From assembly GCA_003139995.1 (NCBI GenBank), contig PLIC01000067.1:4226-36781 (forward strand): DNA of 32,556 nucleotides, in the 5' to 3' direction. Below the pieces are notes generated by a model that ran no database searches, had not been told where the DNA came from, and saw only the letters and a list, made by a program, of their open reading frames with translations. The position numbers and the translations under genes are program-made. How positions within the stretch are numbered: position 1 is the first letter of the stretch; every line of letters begins with the position of its first letter. Shown in pieces: positions 4,702 through 13,721 of this stretch. This DNA is from Candidatus Acidiflorens stordalenmirensis (lineage in GTDB: Bacteria > Acidobacteriota > Terriglobia > Terriglobales > Acidobacteriaceae).

Positions 4702-6456
4702 CTAGAAGCCCGGCAGAGGGGTGATTCCTTTTGATTCCACGCACTCATAGGCCCGGCCGGCCGCGAGGTTCTTGTATTCTTCCGTTCTTCCGCTGGGCCA
4801 TTCAATGACCAGACGATCGATCTTGTCGCGCTTGCCCAGCCCGAAGGTTACGGGCAGTTCCGATTGCGACAGATAGCTGGATCCGCCCTTGACCAGGCGC
4901 GATTGGCTCGTAGTTCCATTCAATGCACCGTGAAAGATTTTCACCGCAGCGCCGATGGCATCGCGATTAGACTTCGTCCCGACTAAATGGATCCGGATGC
5001 TTCGGTTTCCGGCAGTCTCGTCATTGCGATAGAGATAGGCTGGGCCGTTGTTAGTGGTGATCAACAGATCAAGATCGCCGTCGCGATCGAAATCGCCATA
5101 GGCAAGCCCGCGTCCGACCTTTGGTTGACTGAAGCCGCCGCCGATTTCAGCAGCCACGTCGACAAACGTTCCCTTTCCGCTGTTCAGGAAAAGTTGCGGC
5201 GGCTGCGCATAACCGACGCCGCTGACGTTGCGCACCGTGTCGTCGATATGCCCGTTCACCACTGCCAGGTCGAGTGCGCCGTCCAGATCGGCATCGAGAA
5301 ACACGCATCCGAATCCCAACTTATCTTTCGACGCCGCCCCCACTCCGCTCTGCATGGCTACGTCAACATAACTTCCGCTATCGGAAAGCCGGTAAAGCCC
5401 GGTCATCTCGTTATCGAAATTCGTGATGGCCACGCCCGAGTTTCCTGAATTGTCGAAGTCGGCCACGTCCACGCCCATTCCGGCGCGCGCCCTGCCCTCC
5501 ACGGAAAAGGCGATGCCGGCATCCACGGCTATGTCTATAAACGTGCCGTTGCGCTGATTCCGATAAAGTTTATTGGGCTGCGTGTCATTGGTGACCAGCA
5601 GATCGGGCCAGCCGTCGTGATCGTAGTCGAGCATGGCTACGCCCAGGGATTTCGAACTGCTGTCGAAAATTCCGCTCGTGGCCGTGACATCCTCGAAGGT
5701 TCCATTGCCGCGATTGCGAAACAACCAGCAGGTTTCTCCGCGGTAGGCTTCGGGAGTGCAATACGACTTGTGCTTGCCATCGAGGCTGCAAAACACATCG
5801 TGCTCGGAAGACCATTTGACGTAGTTGCAGACAAACAGATCCAGCAGTCCGTCGCGATCGAAATCAAACCACAAAGCGGACGAGCTCAACGCCTGTCGGC
5901 CGCCCAGCCCACTCGACTTAGTAACATCGATGAACGTCCCCTTGCCGGTGTTCTTGAACAGCCGGTTCTGCCCGACGCAGGTAATCAGGATGTCGGGATA
6001 GCCGTCGTTGTCGTAATCTCCGATCGCAACTCCCATGCCGTACATCTCGACGTCGAGCCCGGCGCTGCGAGTTACATCGGAAAACGTGCCGTTACGATTG
6101 TTGCGATAGAGCTTCAGCGTGCTGGGCTCCGACTTATGCTCCCGTTTGTGTCCGGGCCAATCGGCGCCGTTTACCAGAAGAATGTCCTGCCAGCCGTCGC
6201 GGTCGTAGTCGAGGAATGCGCAACCGGCGCCGAGCGTTTCCGGCAGCAGCTTCCCGCCGTAGGCGCCGCTGTTGTGACGAAAGCGAATTCCAGACTGGCC
6301 AGTTACATCCACCAGGCGGAAACCGGGATCAGGCGAGGGAGAAGCTGCGAATGCGTCCAAGAGCAAGCCTGATGTCGTTGTTGATGCCAAGCCTGCCATT
6401 GCCCACAGAAACGACCGGCGGTTCAGGGCAGGGAGGCTCACGGCAGGCCGATTCAC
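4702..6456 (-). CDS. Exported FG-GAP/VCBS repeat protein with C-terminal ASPIC/UnbV domain (CRTAC1-like)
   Basis: The GTG at 6456 overlaps the response-regulator stop as GTGA, giving 584 residues and probable translational coupling; a longer frame upstream only reads antisense-like sequence inside the regulator gene. The N-terminus carries a twin-arginine-like signal (NRRSFLWAMAGLAS) and a cleavable Ala-rich end. Seven calcium-binding loops of the DxDxDG kind follow (LDYDRDGWQDILL, GDYDNDGYPDILI, FDFDRDGLLDLFV, LDYDHDGWPDLLV, ADFDNSGNSGVAI, LDADLDGALDLAV, GDFDRDGDLDLLI), which predicts a beta-propeller. The last 100 residues are an ASPIC/UnbV domain (GAAVKI, GGSSYLSQSELPVTFGLG, IEWPSGRTEEY). 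Such proteins are extracytoplasmic. The role is not known, but the gene arrangement links it to the two-component system. Confidence 0.93.
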   Translation of the reverse strand: MNRPAVSLPALNRRSFLWAMAGLASTTTSGLLLDAFAASPSPDPGFRLVDVTGQSGIRFRHNSGAYGGKLLPETLGAGCAFLDYDRDGWQDILLVNGADWPGHKREHKSEPSTLKLYRNNRNGTFSDVTRSAGLDVEMYGMGVAIGDYDNDGYPDILITCVGQNRLFKNTGKGTFIDVTKSSGLGGRQALSSSALWFDFDRDGLLDLFVCNYVKWSSEHDVFCSLDGKHKSYCTPEAYRGETCWLFRNRGNGTFEDVTATSGIFDSSSKSLGVAMLDYDHDGWPDLLVTNDTQPNKLYRNQRNGTFIDIAVDAGIAFSVEGRARAGMGVDVADFDNSGNSGVAITNFDNEMTGLYRLSDSGSYVDVAMQSGVGAASKDKLGFGCVFLDADLDGALDLAVVNGHIDDTVRNVSGVGYAQPPQLFLNSGKGTFVDVAAEIGGGFSQPKVGRGLAYGDFDRDGDLDLLITTNNGPAYLYRNDETAGNRSIRIHLVGTKSNRDAIGAAVKIFHGALNGTTSQSRLVKGGSSYLSQSELPVTFGLGKRDKIDRLVIEWPSGRTEEYKNLAAGRAYECVESKGITPLPGF

Positions 6457-7082
6457 GGCAAATCTACCAGCCCGTTGCGGATCGCGTAGACGACCAACTC
6501 GGCGGTCTTGTGGGTTCCCAAAGCGTCCATCATGTTGGCACGATGCACGGCGACGGTGTTGGCGCTGAGGTCGAGCGCTGCCGCAATCTCCCTGTTGGAT
6601 TTGCCATCCACGATCATTTGCAGGACTTCGAGTTCGCGCGGGGTGAGCCCCGCCTGGCGCTTGCCTTTGAGCGCAACCGGGCGCTTGAGTTGGGAATCGA
6701 GCACAGTTTCGCCGTTCGCGACTCGCCGGATGGCAGCACCCAACTCCAGGTCCACGGCGTTTTTCAGAACATACCCGCGCGCGCCGGCATCGAGCGCCTG
6801 CCGCACCAGAGTCTCCTCCGGATGCATGCTGAGCATGAGCACCAAAGCCTGCGGATACTTCCGAAGAATCTGCCGCGTGGCTTCGAGTCCGTTCATGCCG
6901 GGCATGGCGCAATCCATGACAATCACTTTCGGACGAAGCTCATCCGCGAGTTTGATTGCTTCAGGGCCGTCGCCAGCCTCGCCGGCAACGGTAATGTCCG
7001 GCTCATCCTCCAGAATGCGCCGGAATCCTCGTCGCACCAGGGTATGGTCGTCAACCAGCAAAACTGAAATTTTATGCGGCAT
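6453..7082 (-). CDS. NarL/FixJ-family response regulator (REC + LuxR HTH)
   Basis: A 209-residue regulator starting at the ATG at 7082, which lies inside the last codons of the sensor kinase (11-base overlap). The receiver domain shows the acidic pair D11/D12, phospho-acceptor D57 (VIVMDCAMPG) and K107 (GYVLKNA). The LuxR-type DNA-binding domain begins at LTPRELEVLQ (about 146) with recognition-helix sequence NTVAVHRANMM. Residues 120-145 form the linker. It is the cognate partner of the kinase directly upstream and overlaps the FG-GAP/ASPIC gene downstream by four bases, so all three are very likely made from one transcript. The target promoters cannot be deduced from the sequence. Confidence 0.96.
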   Translation of the reverse strand: MPHKISVLLVDDHTLVRRGFRRILEDEPDITVAGEAGDGPEAIKLADELRPKVIVMDCAMPGMNGLEATRQILRKYPQALVLMLSMHPEETLVRQALDAGARGYVLKNAVDLELGAAIRRVANGETVLDSQLKRPVALKGKRQAGLTPRELEVLQMIVDGKSNREIAAALDLSANTVAVHRANMMDALGTHKTAELVVYAIRNGLVDLP

Positions 7083-8436
7083 GTAAGTCAAGCTTCTCTC
7101 TTGGGACTCGTAATCGAACCAGCGTTCCTTTTCCACCTTGCGCGGGCCGCAAAAATTCAACTGTGCCGCCAAGCAACTCCGCGCGTTCCCGCATCGCCAC
7201 CAGTCCAATTCCCTGCGTTGTAGCCCGCGCTTCAAAACCCCTGCCGTGATCTTCCACCTCGACTTCCAAAGCTTGCGGCAGAAATCGCAGGCGCACCCAT
7301 GCTTCCCTGGCTCCCGAATGGCGGGTCAAATTATTCAAGGCTTCTTGCATCACGCGATACACATGAATGGCGGCGTTGCCGTCCACGGGAAAGGGTTCGC
7401 CCGATTTCTCATAGAATACGCGAATCCCCGCCTGCCTTTCCAACACCGGCAAATACCAGTCGAGCGTGCTCTCCAGTCCGGTTTCTTCGAGCATCACCGG
7501 ATGCAAGGCCTGCGAAAGGCTGCGCACTTTGTCCAGCGCGCTTTGCGTAATCTCACAGACCTCGCGCAGTTCGGAGCGCAGCGCCGATCCCTCCGGAGCG
7601 TGACTTCCCGCGCGGGTCAGCATGGCGCCCACGGCGGTCAGAATCTGTCCGAACTCATCGTGCAATTCGCGCGAGATGTGGCGCAAAGTGGATTCCTGGG
7701 TCGAAATGAGCTTCTGGGCAAGTTCGCTGCGCTGTTCGGAAAGCGCCGCGAGTTGCGCGAACAATCGCCGGTTCGAGCGGATCAGGTAAAGGCTGGTAAA
7801 GAGAATGGCAATCAAAGTCGCCGTCAGGAACAGATACACCTGCCGCTGAACGCGGTCATAAATTTCCGCAATGCGCAGCGCAGCTTGCTCTTCGCTCTCA
7901 TTGTTCTGCACCAGCAGCCGGGACACGGCCGTGCTCAGCGCTTCCTGCCGGGCCCGCAGCGAGATTCGAATCTGCGTCCTGGCTTCCGCCTGGTTGGGGT
8001 CGCGCGCCAGGGCAAAGGTCCGATCCACGGCGTCCCAGAACTGCGTGACGGAATTCTCCAGGTATTGCTTTTGTTCGGGAGTTCGATTGACCGGGGCAAC
8101 TTGTTGCTCGCGGCGCAGCGCGTCGTCCAGATCCGTCCGCACGCGCTGGAACTGCGCCGACCACGCCGTCAGCGGGTAGGGCTCATCGTTGTCCAGCATG
8201 TCGCGCATCGCCAGCGCCAGCGTGTTCAAGTCGTTCTGGATGCGCAGCAGTTGCAGAGAGTCTTTCCGGTTGCGGTCCACCAGATTGTTCTGCAGTTCAC
8301 GCAAGCCGGAGATCTGCCGCGTGATGTATCCCGAGTAAGCCACCACGGCCGCCAGGGTGATGATCAGCCCAACAGATAATCCGGGAGTGGGAGACCGATG
8401 AAGCGCAGGAGAACGGAGCACGCCCCGAGAATACAA
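7072..8436 (-). CDS. Membrane sensor histidine kinase, HisKA_3 type
   Basis: About 454 residues from a TTG at 8436; a GTG at 8421 is an equally possible start, and neither has a strong Shine-Dalgarno sequence. The order is: TM helix at about 20-38; an extracytoplasmic helical sensor region of about 160 residues rich in Arg/Gln/Leu (CHASE3 or four-helix-bundle-like); TM helix at about 200-220; dimerisation domain with phospho-accepting H259 in RELHDEFGQILTAVG; then a HATPase_c domain with an N-box (EALNNLTRHSGA), G1 (EDHGRGF) and G2 (GIGLVAMRERAELLGG). The combination is typical of NarX/DegS-like kinases paired with NarL regulators. The ligand is unknown. Only ten bases separate it from the stop of the upstream selenoprotein gene. 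Confidence 0.94.
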   Translation of the reverse strand: MYSRGVLRSPALHRSPTPGLSVGLIITLAAVVAYSGYITRQISGLRELQNNLVDRNRKDSLQLLRIQNDLNTLALAMRDMLDNDEPYPLTAWSAQFQRVRTDLDDALRREQQVAPVNRTPEQKQYLENSVTQFWDAVDRTFALARDPNQAEARTQIRISLRARQEALSTAVSRLLVQNNESEEQAALRIAEIYDRVQRQVYLFLTATLIAILFTSLYLIRSNRRLFAQLAALSEQRSELAQKLISTQESTLRHISRELHDEFGQILTAVGAMLTRAGSHAPEGSALRSELREVCEITQSALDKVRSLSQALHPVMLEETGLESTLDWYLPVLERQAGIRVFYEKSGEPFPVDGNAAIHVYRVMQEALNNLTRHSGAREAWVRLRFLPQALEVEVEDHGRGFEARATTQGIGLVAMRERAELLGGTVEFLRPAQGGKGTLVRLRVPREKLDLHAA

Positions 8437-8446
8437 CGGGGACGGC

Positions 8447-9172
8447 CTAATTTACCAATCTTCCCAGCGCCGCGCGCAATTCTTCCGACCTAAAACCGAA
8501 CGGACCCGGCTTGGCCTTGTATGCAACATGCCCCTTTGCGTCGATCAGGTAAAGACGATCGGGCCAGCCCGTATAGGCTTGCTCGGTCGAGTTGCCGAAT
8601 CCGTCGATCACCGCGGGAATCTGGATGCCTAGTTTTCGCACGCACGCTCCTGCCACCAGCGCCCGCTCCTCTTCATCTTTCGGGCTGCCTAAAACAACTT
8701 TGTCTTTGAGATTGCTCTCCATCTGCCAGACGTCGCTCGGATGCGCTTCCGTGATGTACACCACCAGGAAAGCGACCCTGTTCCCGTATTGCTCGTAGAG
8801 CTTGTTAAGAGCGGGAACCTCCCGCCGGAACGGCGGTCAAGTGTAGCTGCCAAAGATCAGCACCACGGGGCGCCCTTGCGCCGTCAAACTCGATAACTGC
8901 ACCGAGGCGCTCTTGTCGAGCTTCATTAGCGAAAAATCCGGCGCAGGGTCGCCAACTTGCAAGTTACCGGCACGAGCATGCGTCCACAAGGTCTCAAATG
9001 GAAGCACGAGAAATGCGACCGGACCCGGTATCTTCGCCATGAACCGCGCAAATGCTTCCGGCGGTTTCCGCATGACCTCGTACAGCGCGCCGCAGGCAAG
9101 CGCCCACGCCCGAGCGATCACGCAAAATGCTCCGATCAATGCCCTCTTCACAAATGTGCGTCGTGTGCTCAA
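8447..9172 (-). CDS. Deiodinase-like redoxin selenoprotein with in-frame UGA (Sec) codon
   Basis: One continuous frame of 241 residues if UGA at 8837-8839 is read as selenocysteine. The UGA sits in FGSYT-U-PPFRREVPALNKL, exactly where iodothyronine deiodinase-like and redoxin relatives carry Sec or Cys. Family-consistent sequence continues after it (VVYITEAHPSDVWQ, VAGACVRKLGI, STEQAYTGWPDRLYLID, PGPFGF). Before it come a hydrophobic N-terminal helix and VGDPAPDFSL, the start of a thioredoxin fold. I chose the TTG at 9172 (AAAGG upstream); an ATG at 9073 (MRKPPEAF) and an ATG at 9262 are alternatives. It is likely a membrane-tethered peroxidase or disulfide-type oxidoreductase; deiodinase activity on a natural substrate is not implied. 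A conventional annotation would split it at the UGA into two hypothetical ORFs. A nonsense-mutated Cys gene is the competing explanation. Confidence 0.85.
8811..8839 (-). promoter_or_regulatory. Candidate bacterial SECIS element next to UGA
   Basis: On the minus strand, 17 bases after the UGA, GCGGGA-GGU-UCCCGC (8825 down to 8811) forms a perfect six-pair stem with a three-base GGU loop. Bacterial SECIS elements lie within the coding region just 3' of the UGA and have a small apical loop with an early G; in E. coli fdhF a GGU apex sits about 18 bases after the UGA. The bulged U known in the fdhF stem is absent. A competing hairpin, CCGCC-GUUCC-GGCGG (8836-8822), shares bases with the stem and cannot form at the same time. 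Confidence 0.72.
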
Positions 9173-9438
9173 GGAACCTTTTTCACAGACTTCTTCCAAA
9201 CATGCGCACGAAAACAGAAGCCCGATGCCAGAACACATTCCCCACCGAGCGTGCAAGGCCATGCGAAGCGATTTCGCACCCAGCTAAAGTGCCGTGATTA
9301 TAGGGAGGCAGACAGATAGGTCAATAATGTGAAACTAGTATGCTGGTCAGCCGAAGCCGTCGCGAGCCATCTTATCAATGAATTCGAGGACATAAGACGA
9401 TCACCGCAATAGGTTCGCAAGATTCCTGGCAAAAGCCA

Positions 9439-10925: not shown

Positions 10926-11465
10926 GTGAGCTTGGATGGCACTGAAGGCGGCCGGCAGCTTTGGTATGGACGGCGCGCCAACGATTTGGCCAACCAAGTC
11001 ACTCTTACTTGGCAGAAAGCGAAGCAGCCCTTGCCTGCGTTTGAACTCGCCGACCTCAGCGACAGGCCCTGGAATCTGGCTTCACTGAAGGGCAAGGTGA
11101 CGTTCATAAACTTTTGGGCATCGTGGTGCGGGCCATGTCGCGAGGAGTTGCCTCATTTGCAAAAGCTCATCGACCACTACAAGGATCGTTCTGATGCTCA
11201 GTTCATCACCTTGAACATGGACGAGAACCCCGGGCTCATCCAGCCCTTCCTGAAAGAGCACGAACTCTCCATAGTCGTGATCCCGGCTTCGAACTACGTG
11301 ACCGAGACGCTGAAGGTGCATGGAATCCCGCAGAATTGGATTGTGGATGAGCACGCCGTTGTGCGGCTGAAGAGTGTCGGTTACGGTCCGGCGGAACAGT
11401 GGGTAACGGGCATGGAAAACGCCATCGACGAGGTCAAGCCTGCCGCAAACGGGTCGCAACCCTAG
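10926..11465 (+). CDS. TlpA-like thioredoxin, apparently 5'-truncated relative of the 711-residue neighbour
   Basis: A 179-residue frame from GTG at 10926 that contains a complete TlpA/ResA-type thioredoxin domain: PAFELADLSDRPWNL, then FINFWASWCGPC with cysteines C68 and C71, and GIPQNWIVDEHAVV with the cis-Pro region. The in-frame sequence just upstream (ELAENAHRLW) still resembles the linker of the large gene at 11586-13721, so the start shown is only the first usable codon and the N-terminal TPR-like part seems lost. There is no signal peptide, which a periplasmic TlpA protein would need, so this is probably a gene remnant. The truncation falls close to the tRNA-Pro fragment at 10739-10780. 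It is convergent with its relative. Confidence 0.65.
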   Translation: MSLDGTEGGRQLWYGRRANDLANQVTLTWQKAKQPLPAFELADLSDRPWNLASLKGKVTFINFWASWCGPCREELPHLQKLIDHYKDRSDAQFITLNMDENPGLIQPFLKEHELSIVVIPASNYVTETLKVHGIPQNWIVDEHAVVRLKSVGYGPAEQWVTGMENAIDEVKPAANGSQP

Positions 11466-11585: not shown

Positions 11586-13721
11586 TCAGTTGCTTGTCTT
11601 GGCGGACTCCAGCTTTTGTGTCATCACTTCTCCCCAGTTGTCTTCCGCGCCATAACCGATCTGCGTCCACAGCCAATTGCCTTTCGGATCCACAACCCAG
11701 TTTTGGGGGATGCCGTCGTACCCAACCCCAACTTGCAAGTTGTTCACCAGCGAATAAGCAGGGAGGACGGGGAAGGTGTAGCCCTTATCTTTTACATAGG
11801 GCGCCAGCAGCCCAAGGTCTTCGTCAATGTCAAAAGTGAGGAGCTGAATATCGGGACGGCCGTTAAGTTGTTCGTAGAGTTTCTGGAGCTTTGCCAGTTC
11901 CTCTTGGCACGGGCCGCACCAAGTCGCCCACACGTTGATCAGGACTGCCTTGCCCCCAAGGTCCTTCAAGCGCCAGGTTTTGCCAGACAAATCGGACAGT
12001 TCGAATGCGGGAAGCGTTTTTTTCGGCTTTTCCCATCTCCCTTGTGCCAGTTCCGTTCCTTTCGAGGCGAGTGGCTTGCTCCATAGGGCCCATGCGGCGG
12101 CTGTACCGCCGGTCTCTTTCCAGAGTGCTTGGGCTTCGTCGGTAAGATCATCCCGGAACTTTCCTTTCGAGTATTGCGGCGGTTCCGAGCGGGTGCGTAA
12201 TGACGATTGATAGTAGGCGAGGGCGTCGAGCTTGCGGCCTTCCAGCGCGGCCAGCCGGGCGCGATTCCACCAGTAATCGGACTGCAGTTTTCCCTGGGTG
12301 GGCGGCCCCTCGACGAACTGTTTGATCGCCTTGACTGCATCCGGCCGCCCGGCGAGTTGAGCCGCCTTTAGTATCTGACCATCCAGCCGCAGGTCCCAAG
12401 CGAGATCCATCTCGTTAAAATGATCCCGATCTTCGGCAGAGAGATTGTCGTCCGGCTTTTGTAACGCGCGTTCCCTGGCTGACACTGTTTTAGCTTGCTC
12501 AAGCAGATCAAGCGCGCGGCTGGGCTGCCACTTATGTTTCAGCAGAAAGTCTGCAGCATGAAATTGGGGGGTCCAGGCGTCGGGCGAGTTGTATGCGGCA
12601 TTATATCGCAGATATTCGTCCATGGCGGCGATACCGTCTTTCTCAGTCAGCGAATCTTCGTCAGAAATCGCGTGGAACCACGCGTCGTGCGCAATATTGT
12701 CCGGGAAATCGCGAATCCATCCTTTTAGAGCCTCTTTGTAAGCCTCATGGTACTTGTCCCACGCCGCCGCATCCTTCTGGTCTTCGGGTTTCTTGTTCGC
12801 CTTTTGCCAACGCTCGGAGACTATATGGTAAGCCTCGCCGGAATGGGGACACTCGCGTAACAGGCGGTCCTCCATGGCGGTGATGGTCTCGGACGAAGCG
12901 CCGGCCTGCTTGTAACCATTGATCAGGAATGACTGCCATTCGGAATCTGGTTTCGGGTTGAGCGATTCAAGCCGCTTAAGGTCCGCAGCAATCTGCTTGC
13001 GCAGCGCATCATGCTCATGGGGCGGGTGCATGCGAAATTCAAGACTCCAGAGCGTCCCATAATCCTTCAAGCGTGCAAGGTCTGTTTCCTTTGCCAGACG
13101 GGTACTTAAGGCGGCAGCCACCTTTTGTTGCAAGCCGATATATTCGTCCATGGCGAGAAGCCCCTCCGCCCATTCGTTCGTCGAGTCGGGACACAGGGTG
13201 AAGAAGGCCGCCAGGTTCTCAGAGGATTTCTGTTTATCCATCCGCTTCCCCATTGAATAAGCCCCGGCAAGCAGGAGTGCCGGCCAAGGGAATTGCGGCG
13301 CCTTGGCCGCCTCAAGCAGGCGGAGACTTTCTGGGGTGTCCTTCCCGAACAATGCAAAACCGGCTACATAAAGGGCCAAAGGGTCATACGGATTTTGGGC
13401 CGCTTGCTTGCGGAACCTTTCCTGCAGAGCCGGATACCGGCCTGGGTCCCCGTGCGCGTCCTCAATCAGCCGGTTGTACGGCTCAACTTCTCGCGGATAT
13501 TTCGCAATCAGTCCCTCATAGACCGCGTGCCGGAGCGCTACCCGATCGCTGAACTTCATCTTGGCCAGATCTTTGTCGTTAAGCTTCTCGTCGAGGATCT
13601 TGCGAACCTCGGGCGCCGGCTCGCAGCCTGGCAGCGCCTGTGGGGACTGGGCCAAAGACGCGGCAGCAAGCACGATAACGGTGAGAAACATCCGCAAAAA
13701 AGAAACGGGCTTGCATTTCAT
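11586..13721 (-). CDS. Exported TPR-like protein with C-terminal TlpA thioredoxin domain
   Basis: 711 residues from the ATG at 13721, with AAGGAG seven bases upstream. Residues 1-24 are a signal peptide (FLRMFLTVIVLAAASLAQS). A long helical middle (about 60-560) has repeated helix pairs of the TPR/SEL1 kind without a tight consensus. The last 150 residues are a thioredoxin fold of the TlpA/ResA class (PAFELSDLSGKTWRL, then NVWATWCGPC with C602 and C605, and GIPQNWVVDPKG). Proteins of this build are extracytoplasmic thiol-disulfide oxidoreductases; the partner is unknown. A related thioredoxin fragment lies tail to tail 120 bases away, so the pair may come from a duplication. Confidence 0.88.
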   Translation of the reverse strand: MKCKPVSFLRMFLTVIVLAAASLAQSPQALPGCEPAPEVRKILDEKLNDKDLAKMKFSDRVALRHAVYEGLIAKYPREVEPYNRLIEDAHGDPGRYPALQERFRKQAAQNPYDPLALYVAGFALFGKDTPESLRLLEAAKAPQFPWPALLLAGAYSMGKRMDKQKSSENLAAFFTLCPDSTNEWAEGLLAMDEYIGLQQKVAAALSTRLAKETDLARLKDYGTLWSLEFRMHPPHEHDALRKQIAADLKRLESLNPKPDSEWQSFLINGYKQAGASSETITAMEDRLLRECPHSGEAYHIVSERWQKANKKPEDQKDAAAWDKYHEAYKEALKGWIRDFPDNIAHDAWFHAISDEDSLTEKDGIAAMDEYLRYNAAYNSPDAWTPQFHAADFLLKHKWQPSRALDLLEQAKTVSARERALQKPDDNLSAEDRDHFNEMDLAWDLRLDGQILKAAQLAGRPDAVKAIKQFVEGPPTQGKLQSDYWWNRARLAALEGRKLDALAYYQSSLRTRSEPPQYSKGKFRDDLTDEAQALWKETGGTAAAWALWSKPLASKGTELAQGRWEKPKKTLPAFELSDLSGKTWRLKDLGGKAVLINVWATWCGPCQEELAKLQKLYEQLNGRPDIQLLTFDIDEDLGLLAPYVKDKGYTFPVLPAYSLVNNLQVGVGYDGIPQNWVVDPKGNWLWTQIGYGAEDNWGEVMTQKLESAKTSN

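Follow-up and report, generated by a model that had tools for sequence, protein, structure and literature searches.

A deiodinase-like gene of soil Acidobacteriota in which an in-frame UGA is very probably decoded as selenocysteine

Results

A deiodinase-like frame interrupted by a single UGA

The window, by which we mean the whole stretch of 32,556 nucleotides that was analysed, carries on its minus strand a deiodinase-like gene at positions 8447-9172. Translation of this interval gave a single frame of 241 residues (selenocysteine, Sec, included) that is terminated by TAG and whose sole internal stop is the TGA at 8837-8839 (minus strand), residue 112, inside the sequence FGSYT-U-PPF. This confirmed the preliminary description, in which one minus-strand frame with a lone UGA in that motif had been reported. 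The start codon is uncertain: the candidates are TTG at 9172, an in-frame GTG at residue 8, which is seven codons past the TTG, and an upstream ATG at 9262, up to which the open frame extends. ORF calling with translation table 11 splits the gene in two, 8837-9262 and 8447-8764. The two ORFs look unrelated, so ordinary annotation may miss the gene.

The read-through protein matched the T4_deiodinase family PF00837 with 118.6 bits (gathering cut-off 27 bits) over residues 71-238. The match spans both sides of the UGA, in agreement with the family-like flanking sequence noticed earlier, and the TGA occupies the redox position at which this family has Sec or Cys. Among sequences of solved structures, DIO3 (E 3.8e-23) and DIO2 (E 1.1e-21) were matched by sequence comparison (PDB 4tr3 and 9h48). 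In these alignments residue 112 falls on the active-site position, which is Cys in the crystallised chains, and the claim that the UGA stands at the active-site position of a deiodinase-like protein is thereby borne out. Native DIO2 and DIO3 have Sec there. The EAHP motif at residues 142-145 (8738-8749, minus strand) is also common to the animal deiodinases in the DIO2/DIO3 alignment, and E142, A143, H144 and P145 are invariant in a 39-row alignment.

The two table-11 ORFs are what a pure stop at the UGA would give: a short product alone, or a second protein as well if translation re-initiated at GTG 8764. In that case, however, the catalytic FGSYT-PPF motif would be cut in two, the reading frame from 8764 would begin past it, and the hairpin and third-position bias found right after the UGA would be left unexplained. 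We regard a pure stop as very improbable.

The active-site codon in relatives

From the class 399 genomes were sampled, and 137 of them had a PF00837 match. Although the gene may be missed in annotation, the match contains TGA in at least 116 of the 399 (hand count among the matches listed). In a sample of the phylum 23 of 297 genomes matched at E<=1e-12, 16 of these 23 with one TGA. In one class genome (G079) the match holds TAG and TAA alongside TGA.

The codon itself was read in 71 sources: the window, the 30 best class matches (L024-L053) and 40 loci (L054-L093) picked as 34 TGA and 6 non-TGA forms, a chosen sample whose counts are hence no frequencies. The motif pattern fitted 64 of the 71 and the codon was TGA in all 64; L051 also has TGA. 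All six non-TGA relatives examined have Cys at the aligned column. Thus the statement that homologues carry Sec or Cys at this position held for those examined, which have TGA or Cys only, and the proposed alignment of Cys homologues at the UGA gave the result foreseen. The Cys versions (L091-L093 and L071-L073) lie in longer open frames of 354 to 584 residues and are apparently fused to other regions.

A scan of named genomes found 231 relatives, of which the best 80 were kept. These are the ones most like the TGA-type query, which is a bias, and all 80 have TGA at the active-site codon (79 called by pattern; L142, with an NN gap just after the TGA, by eye). One of the two scan patterns, TCPPFRRE, should match Cys versions only, so that Cys relatives could be found. 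By title the 80 are acidobacterial metagenome-assembled genomes, with bog, fen, palsa or a soil depth named in many, plus three isolates: Edaphobacter lichenicola X5P2, Occallatibacter savannae AB23 and strain AB60. Recurrence of the TGA in many separate genomes makes a sequencing error untenable as its source, and its presence in 80 of the best 80 makes a chance stop very unlikely, as had been argued from the single sequence for a random nonsense mutation.

The same recurrence weighs against a pseudogene, that is, a nonsense mutation in a formerly Cys-coding gene. A lone in-frame stop is what such a mutation would leave, and read-through is deduced from sequence; but the sequence downstream of the TGA is conserved, and the hairpin and the Sec machinery described below are present. 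A pseudogene is therefore hardly credible.

Selenocysteine genes in the assembly

The assembly that contains the window (G000) is a draft of 5,493,220 bases in 313 contigs, with completeness 92.84 and contamination 1.46. It encodes SelA (534.7 bits; profile cut-off 267.9), SelB (376.1 bits; cut-off 242.25) and SelD (250.4 bits; cut-off 125; the gene is interrupted by an NN gap), and a tRNA-Sec (selC) of 67.4 bits (gathering cut-off 47) to which ARAGORN assigned the anticodon tca. All lie on contigs other than that of the window (C37): selA and selB on C241, selC on C79 and selD on C161. The preliminary description had predicted the four genes elsewhere in the genome, and all were found in the same assembly. 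The G+C content of the four fetched sel stretches is 0.57-0.61, against 0.58 for the window. A congener listed as 100% complete (G236) carries selA as well as the TGA gene, and contamination is therefore an unlikely source of the sel genes. The selD of the window's genome (L016:1342-1932) itself holds an in-frame TGA, in VKAAG-UGA-ASKLSP, so that selenophosphate synthetase is apparently a selenoprotein as well. This TGA is at the usual Sec/Cys position of SelD.

Reassignment or suppression of UGA as Cys or Trp was also considered. It would agree with the Cys at this column in the non-TGA relatives examined. Yet TGA terminates 5 of the 27 listed ORFs in the window, which makes the genetic code look unaltered, and selA, selB, selD and a tRNA-Sec with anticodon tca are present. 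We give this reading next to no credence.

In the class sample selA was found in 290 of the 399 genomes and in 111 of the 116 listed genomes with the TGA form (Fisher p 3.7e-13, a guide only, since the genomes are related). The five TGA-form genomes without a listed selA are G148, G393, G260, G357 and G336. In two of them selB was above the cut-off, in two it was partial, and in a 59%-complete one a short piece was present. The selB match of G260 (contigs C3, C12 and C16 are involved) does not cover the first 71 positions; two further contigs of this genome begin with an identically scoring fragment from the N-terminus of SelB, which would fit a repeated sel region having broken the assembly.

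A hairpin 3' of the UGA

Directly 3' of the UGA a SECIS-type hairpin, GGCGGGA-GGU-UCCCGCU, is found at 8810-8826 (minus strand). It has a 7-bp stem and the loop GGU, which starts 17 nt after the UGA, and thus presents the G in a small apical loop that is looked for in a selenoprotein gene. Recoding, covariation and folding were used to assess it.

For the recoding test, 62 distinct sequences were each given 400 synonymous recodings of the 20 codons after the UGA, and the best SECIS-like hairpins were compared; as controls, 370 sites in other parts of these genes received 60 recodings each. A p value of 0.05 or less was reached by 36 of the 62 sequences (0.025 for the window) and missed by 26, against 21 of the 370 control places; the rows are related, so these counts are not independent. 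The encoded amino acids alone would predict a weaker hairpin than the conserved one.

The 143 loci yielded 126 distinct sequences. Stem pairs 2 and 3 are GC in 95 of them; CG stands there in 27 and 29, respectively. The changes in the stem are compensatory. A change of the protein from E-V-P to Q-V-G accompanies the flip of the stem pairs, with pairing kept, so that the protein sequence itself betrays the SECIS stem. GTT is the seventh codon after the UGA in 101 of the 126, whereas it makes up 682 of the 3082 Val codons of these genes. The hairpin is in the same register in 118 of the 126 and four nt further on in 5 (loop GGN or GTG); 3 have neither. Loci with the downstream register are L024, L026, L027, L039, L048 and L089, with the loop GGN/GTG and a different yet complementary stem; the recoding analysis prefers this register also in L040, L041, L043 and L053.

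The isolated RNA of the window folds otherwise: for 38 nt the energy was -12.7 kcal/mol with a z score of -0.91, and 36 of 200 shuffles were as good. For the 34 nt after the UGA the minimum free energy (MFE) was -12.4, and the SECIS hairpin came to -11.1. To form, the competing hairpin requires the six nt immediately 3' of the UGA, which should be covered by a ribosome positioned at that codon. Over 115 distinct 38-mers the SECIS hairpin was part of the MFE structure in 89, and in 103 once the first 9 nt, the stretch that such a ribosome should cover, had been removed.

Genomic surroundings

A sensor histidine kinase ORF (7072-8436, minus strand; HisKA_3, HATPase_c and 4HB_MCP_1 domains) starts 10 nt downstream of the deiodinase-like gene and is followed by an ORF for a LuxR/NarL-type response regulator (6453-7235, minus strand). 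The kinase ORF is possibly co-transcribed with the deiodinase-like gene. A kinase is directly downstream in only 4 of the best 80 of the 231 named-genome relatives (L096, L097, whose fetched contig stops within the kinase, L098 and L100); in L099 it lies about 2 kb downstream and in L106 upstream on the other strand. Among 63 other loci the kinase was not seen beside the gene in any; the flanks of 29 of these extend about 1.5 kb or less from the match. A general functional link to the kinase/regulator pair was rejected on the count in the 80, and the kinase neighbour is not needed for Sec.

Upstream on the same strand, nine distinct relatives have selB (L059, L060=L164, L068, L069=L174, L158, L159, L161, L163 and L171), preceded by parts of selA where the fetched DNA reaches (L060, L068, L069, L163 and L171). 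In L155 selA is upstream on the other strand. An AhpD-like gene is directly upstream on the same strand in 18 of the 143 loci, which represent 15 distinct genomes when L060=L164, L069=L174 and L086=L154 are joined; selB precedes it in eight distinct relatives. The two AhpD-like neighbours tested both belong to the CMD family (PF02627), and the one also compared with NCBIfam is above the TIGR01926 peroxid_rel cut-off. These proteins thus adjoin the deiodinase-like gene in relatives, yet belong to a separate family. Their motif is CxxU in 15 loci and CxxC in L086, L154 and L150. The CPYU/CPFU versions, for example L171:2177-2794, L161:2218-2799 and those of 13 further loci, are candidates for a second selenoprotein. 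One query for an AhpD-like partner in the genome of the window gave no match, and as it was run without a known positive its emptiness shows nothing.

Protein features

A hydrophobic segment near the N-terminus (9083-9139, minus strand), found by hydropathy, is a probable membrane anchor. Such a segment is present in 123 of the 130 proteins long enough for testing, and the net positive charge is greater on its N side in 115 of the 130, with 13 ties and 2 reversed. This suggests that the segment is an anchor and that the catalytic domain lies outside the cytoplasm.

Cys177 (codon 8642-8644, minus strand), invariant in the 39-row alignment, is a candidate resolving cysteine. Each of 64 proteins has one only of two further cysteine sites, Cys177 in 35 and the residue-160 position in 29; none has both or neither. 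This is as expected if either Cys resolves the oxidised Sec, but it is weak evidence because the split follows lineage.

Discussion

The UGA at 8837-8839 is very probably decoded as selenocysteine, and the gene would then encode a bacterial deiodinase-like selenoprotein; insertion in vivo is inferred from the sequence data. That the organism reads this codon as Sec, as first proposed from the window alone, is supported by the sel genes, the alternation of TGA and Cys and the SECIS hairpin. The ribosome would reach the UGA during translation, the hairpin just 3' of it would recruit SelB with Sec-tRNA-Sec, the latter made by SelA with selenophosphate from SelD, and insertion of selenocysteine would yield the full-length protein.

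Bacterial Sec-containing deiodinase-like proteins have been known since 2005, so the kind itself is not new. Four Sec sequences and Cys homologues were described from the Sargasso Sea (PMC1088965, 2005), 22 deiodinase-like entries stand in a table of the GOS set (PMC2398784), and such proteins are listed in reviews (PMC9312934 and PMC13188914). The Sargasso and GOS proteins share with ours the PF00837 family, an in-frame UGA at the catalytic site, a bacterial SECIS and Cys homologues (PMC1088965 and PMC2398784), but they come from marine metagenomes and ours from soil Acidobacteriota. Occallatibacter riparius has been used as a Sec-decoding acidobacterium with three known selenoproteins in a method paper that mentions Acidobacteriota once and never deiodinase (PMC12013277). 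Among the open-licence full texts listed by the literature searches, none was found that links deiodinase selenoproteins with Acidobacteria or Acidobacteriota. Within that literature, the additions made here are the acidobacterial spread, the linkage to selAB and AhpD, and the two-site cysteine pattern. The predicted N-terminal anchor and, in some relatives, the selAB/AhpD linkage are features of the acidobacterial sequences compared here. Less expected were the spread through soil Acidobacteriota and the selA-selB-AhpD(CxxU)-deiodinase cluster of some relatives. The prokaryotic deiodinase-like family is extended from marine sets to soil bacteria, named isolates included, and E. lichenicola X5P2 and O. 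savannae AB23 make its activity testable.

The tables of the two reviews give UxxC as the family motif (PMC9312934 and PMC13188914), and the window protein departs from it with U-P-P-F. As DIO2 and DIO3 also carry PPF, this looks like a matter of sublineage. The best NCBIfam match, NF038285 deiodinase_rel, scored 191.7 bits, below its curated cut-off of 250; residues 72-236 aligned with profile positions 177-340 of 347, and the first half of the profile was unmatched.

With the animal enzymes the window protein shares the motifs T-U-PPF and EAHPSD-W of DIO2 and DIO3. Animal deiodinases have an N-terminal membrane anchor, which the predicted anchor of the window protein resembles. Their SECIS lies in the 3'-UTR, in contrast to the in-frame bacterial SECIS here. 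A further difference concerns the second residue before Sec: Cys in DIO3, it is Tyr in the window protein and Ala in DIO2. Identity to DIO3 is 37% over 166 residues for the window protein and 41% over 165 for L024, the best of 149 fetched bacterial relatives. In a tree with DIO2 and DIO3, which took in 44 of 151 rows, the two joined six proteins of another family in the class; this carries a risk of long-branch attraction, and an origin of the animal deiodinases is not claimed from it.

Concerning function, we favour with moderate confidence a peroxiredoxin-like selenol oxidoreductase anchored by its N-terminal helix. The Sec selenol would attack the substrate and then form a Se-S bond with Cys177, or, in a sister lineage, with a Cys that lies 17 residues closer to the N-terminus; a thiol donor would later reduce this bond. 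Plausible substrates are a peroxide or an organohalide. Also compatible with Sec decoding would be a true reductive dehalogenase of iodinated or halogenated aromatics in soil, acting like the animal deiodinases. The active-site position, T-U-PPF, EAHPSD-W and the identity to DIO3 speak for it, but the Cys that precedes Sec in DIO3 is replaced by Tyr, and the 2005 study expects no thyroid hormones in such bacteria and proposes a redox function (PMC1088965). We consider a dehalogenase of this kind rather unlikely, and return to the selenol oxidoreductase.

What it reduces and how it is recycled is a question for bacterial deiodinase-like proteins in general, for which the AhpD-like selenoprotein neighbour of some relatives is a concrete partner candidate. 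AhpD is the electron donor to AhpC in the AhpC/AhpD system. By analogy the AhpD-like neighbour could be an electron donor to the deiodinase-like protein. However, no export signal was seen in it when its sequence was inspected by eye, which conflicts with a catalytic domain outside the cytoplasm. One may go further and imagine a two-selenoprotein module, encoded with selA and selB in some lineages, in which an AhpD-like CxxU protein would deliver electrons to an anchored deiodinase-like Sec reductase of halogenated aromatics or peroxides, and suppose that, as far as the non-marine sequences go, animal deiodinases could have their nearest bacterial relatives in this terrestrial Sec clade; jointly these two ideas are decidedly unlikely.

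In the window two thioredoxin/AhpC-TSA-domain proteins are encoded near the gene, at 10926-11465 and 11586-13721, one of them with a long N-terminal region. Neither was seen next to the deiodinase-like gene in relatives, although the sequence around those loci spans this distance only in part.
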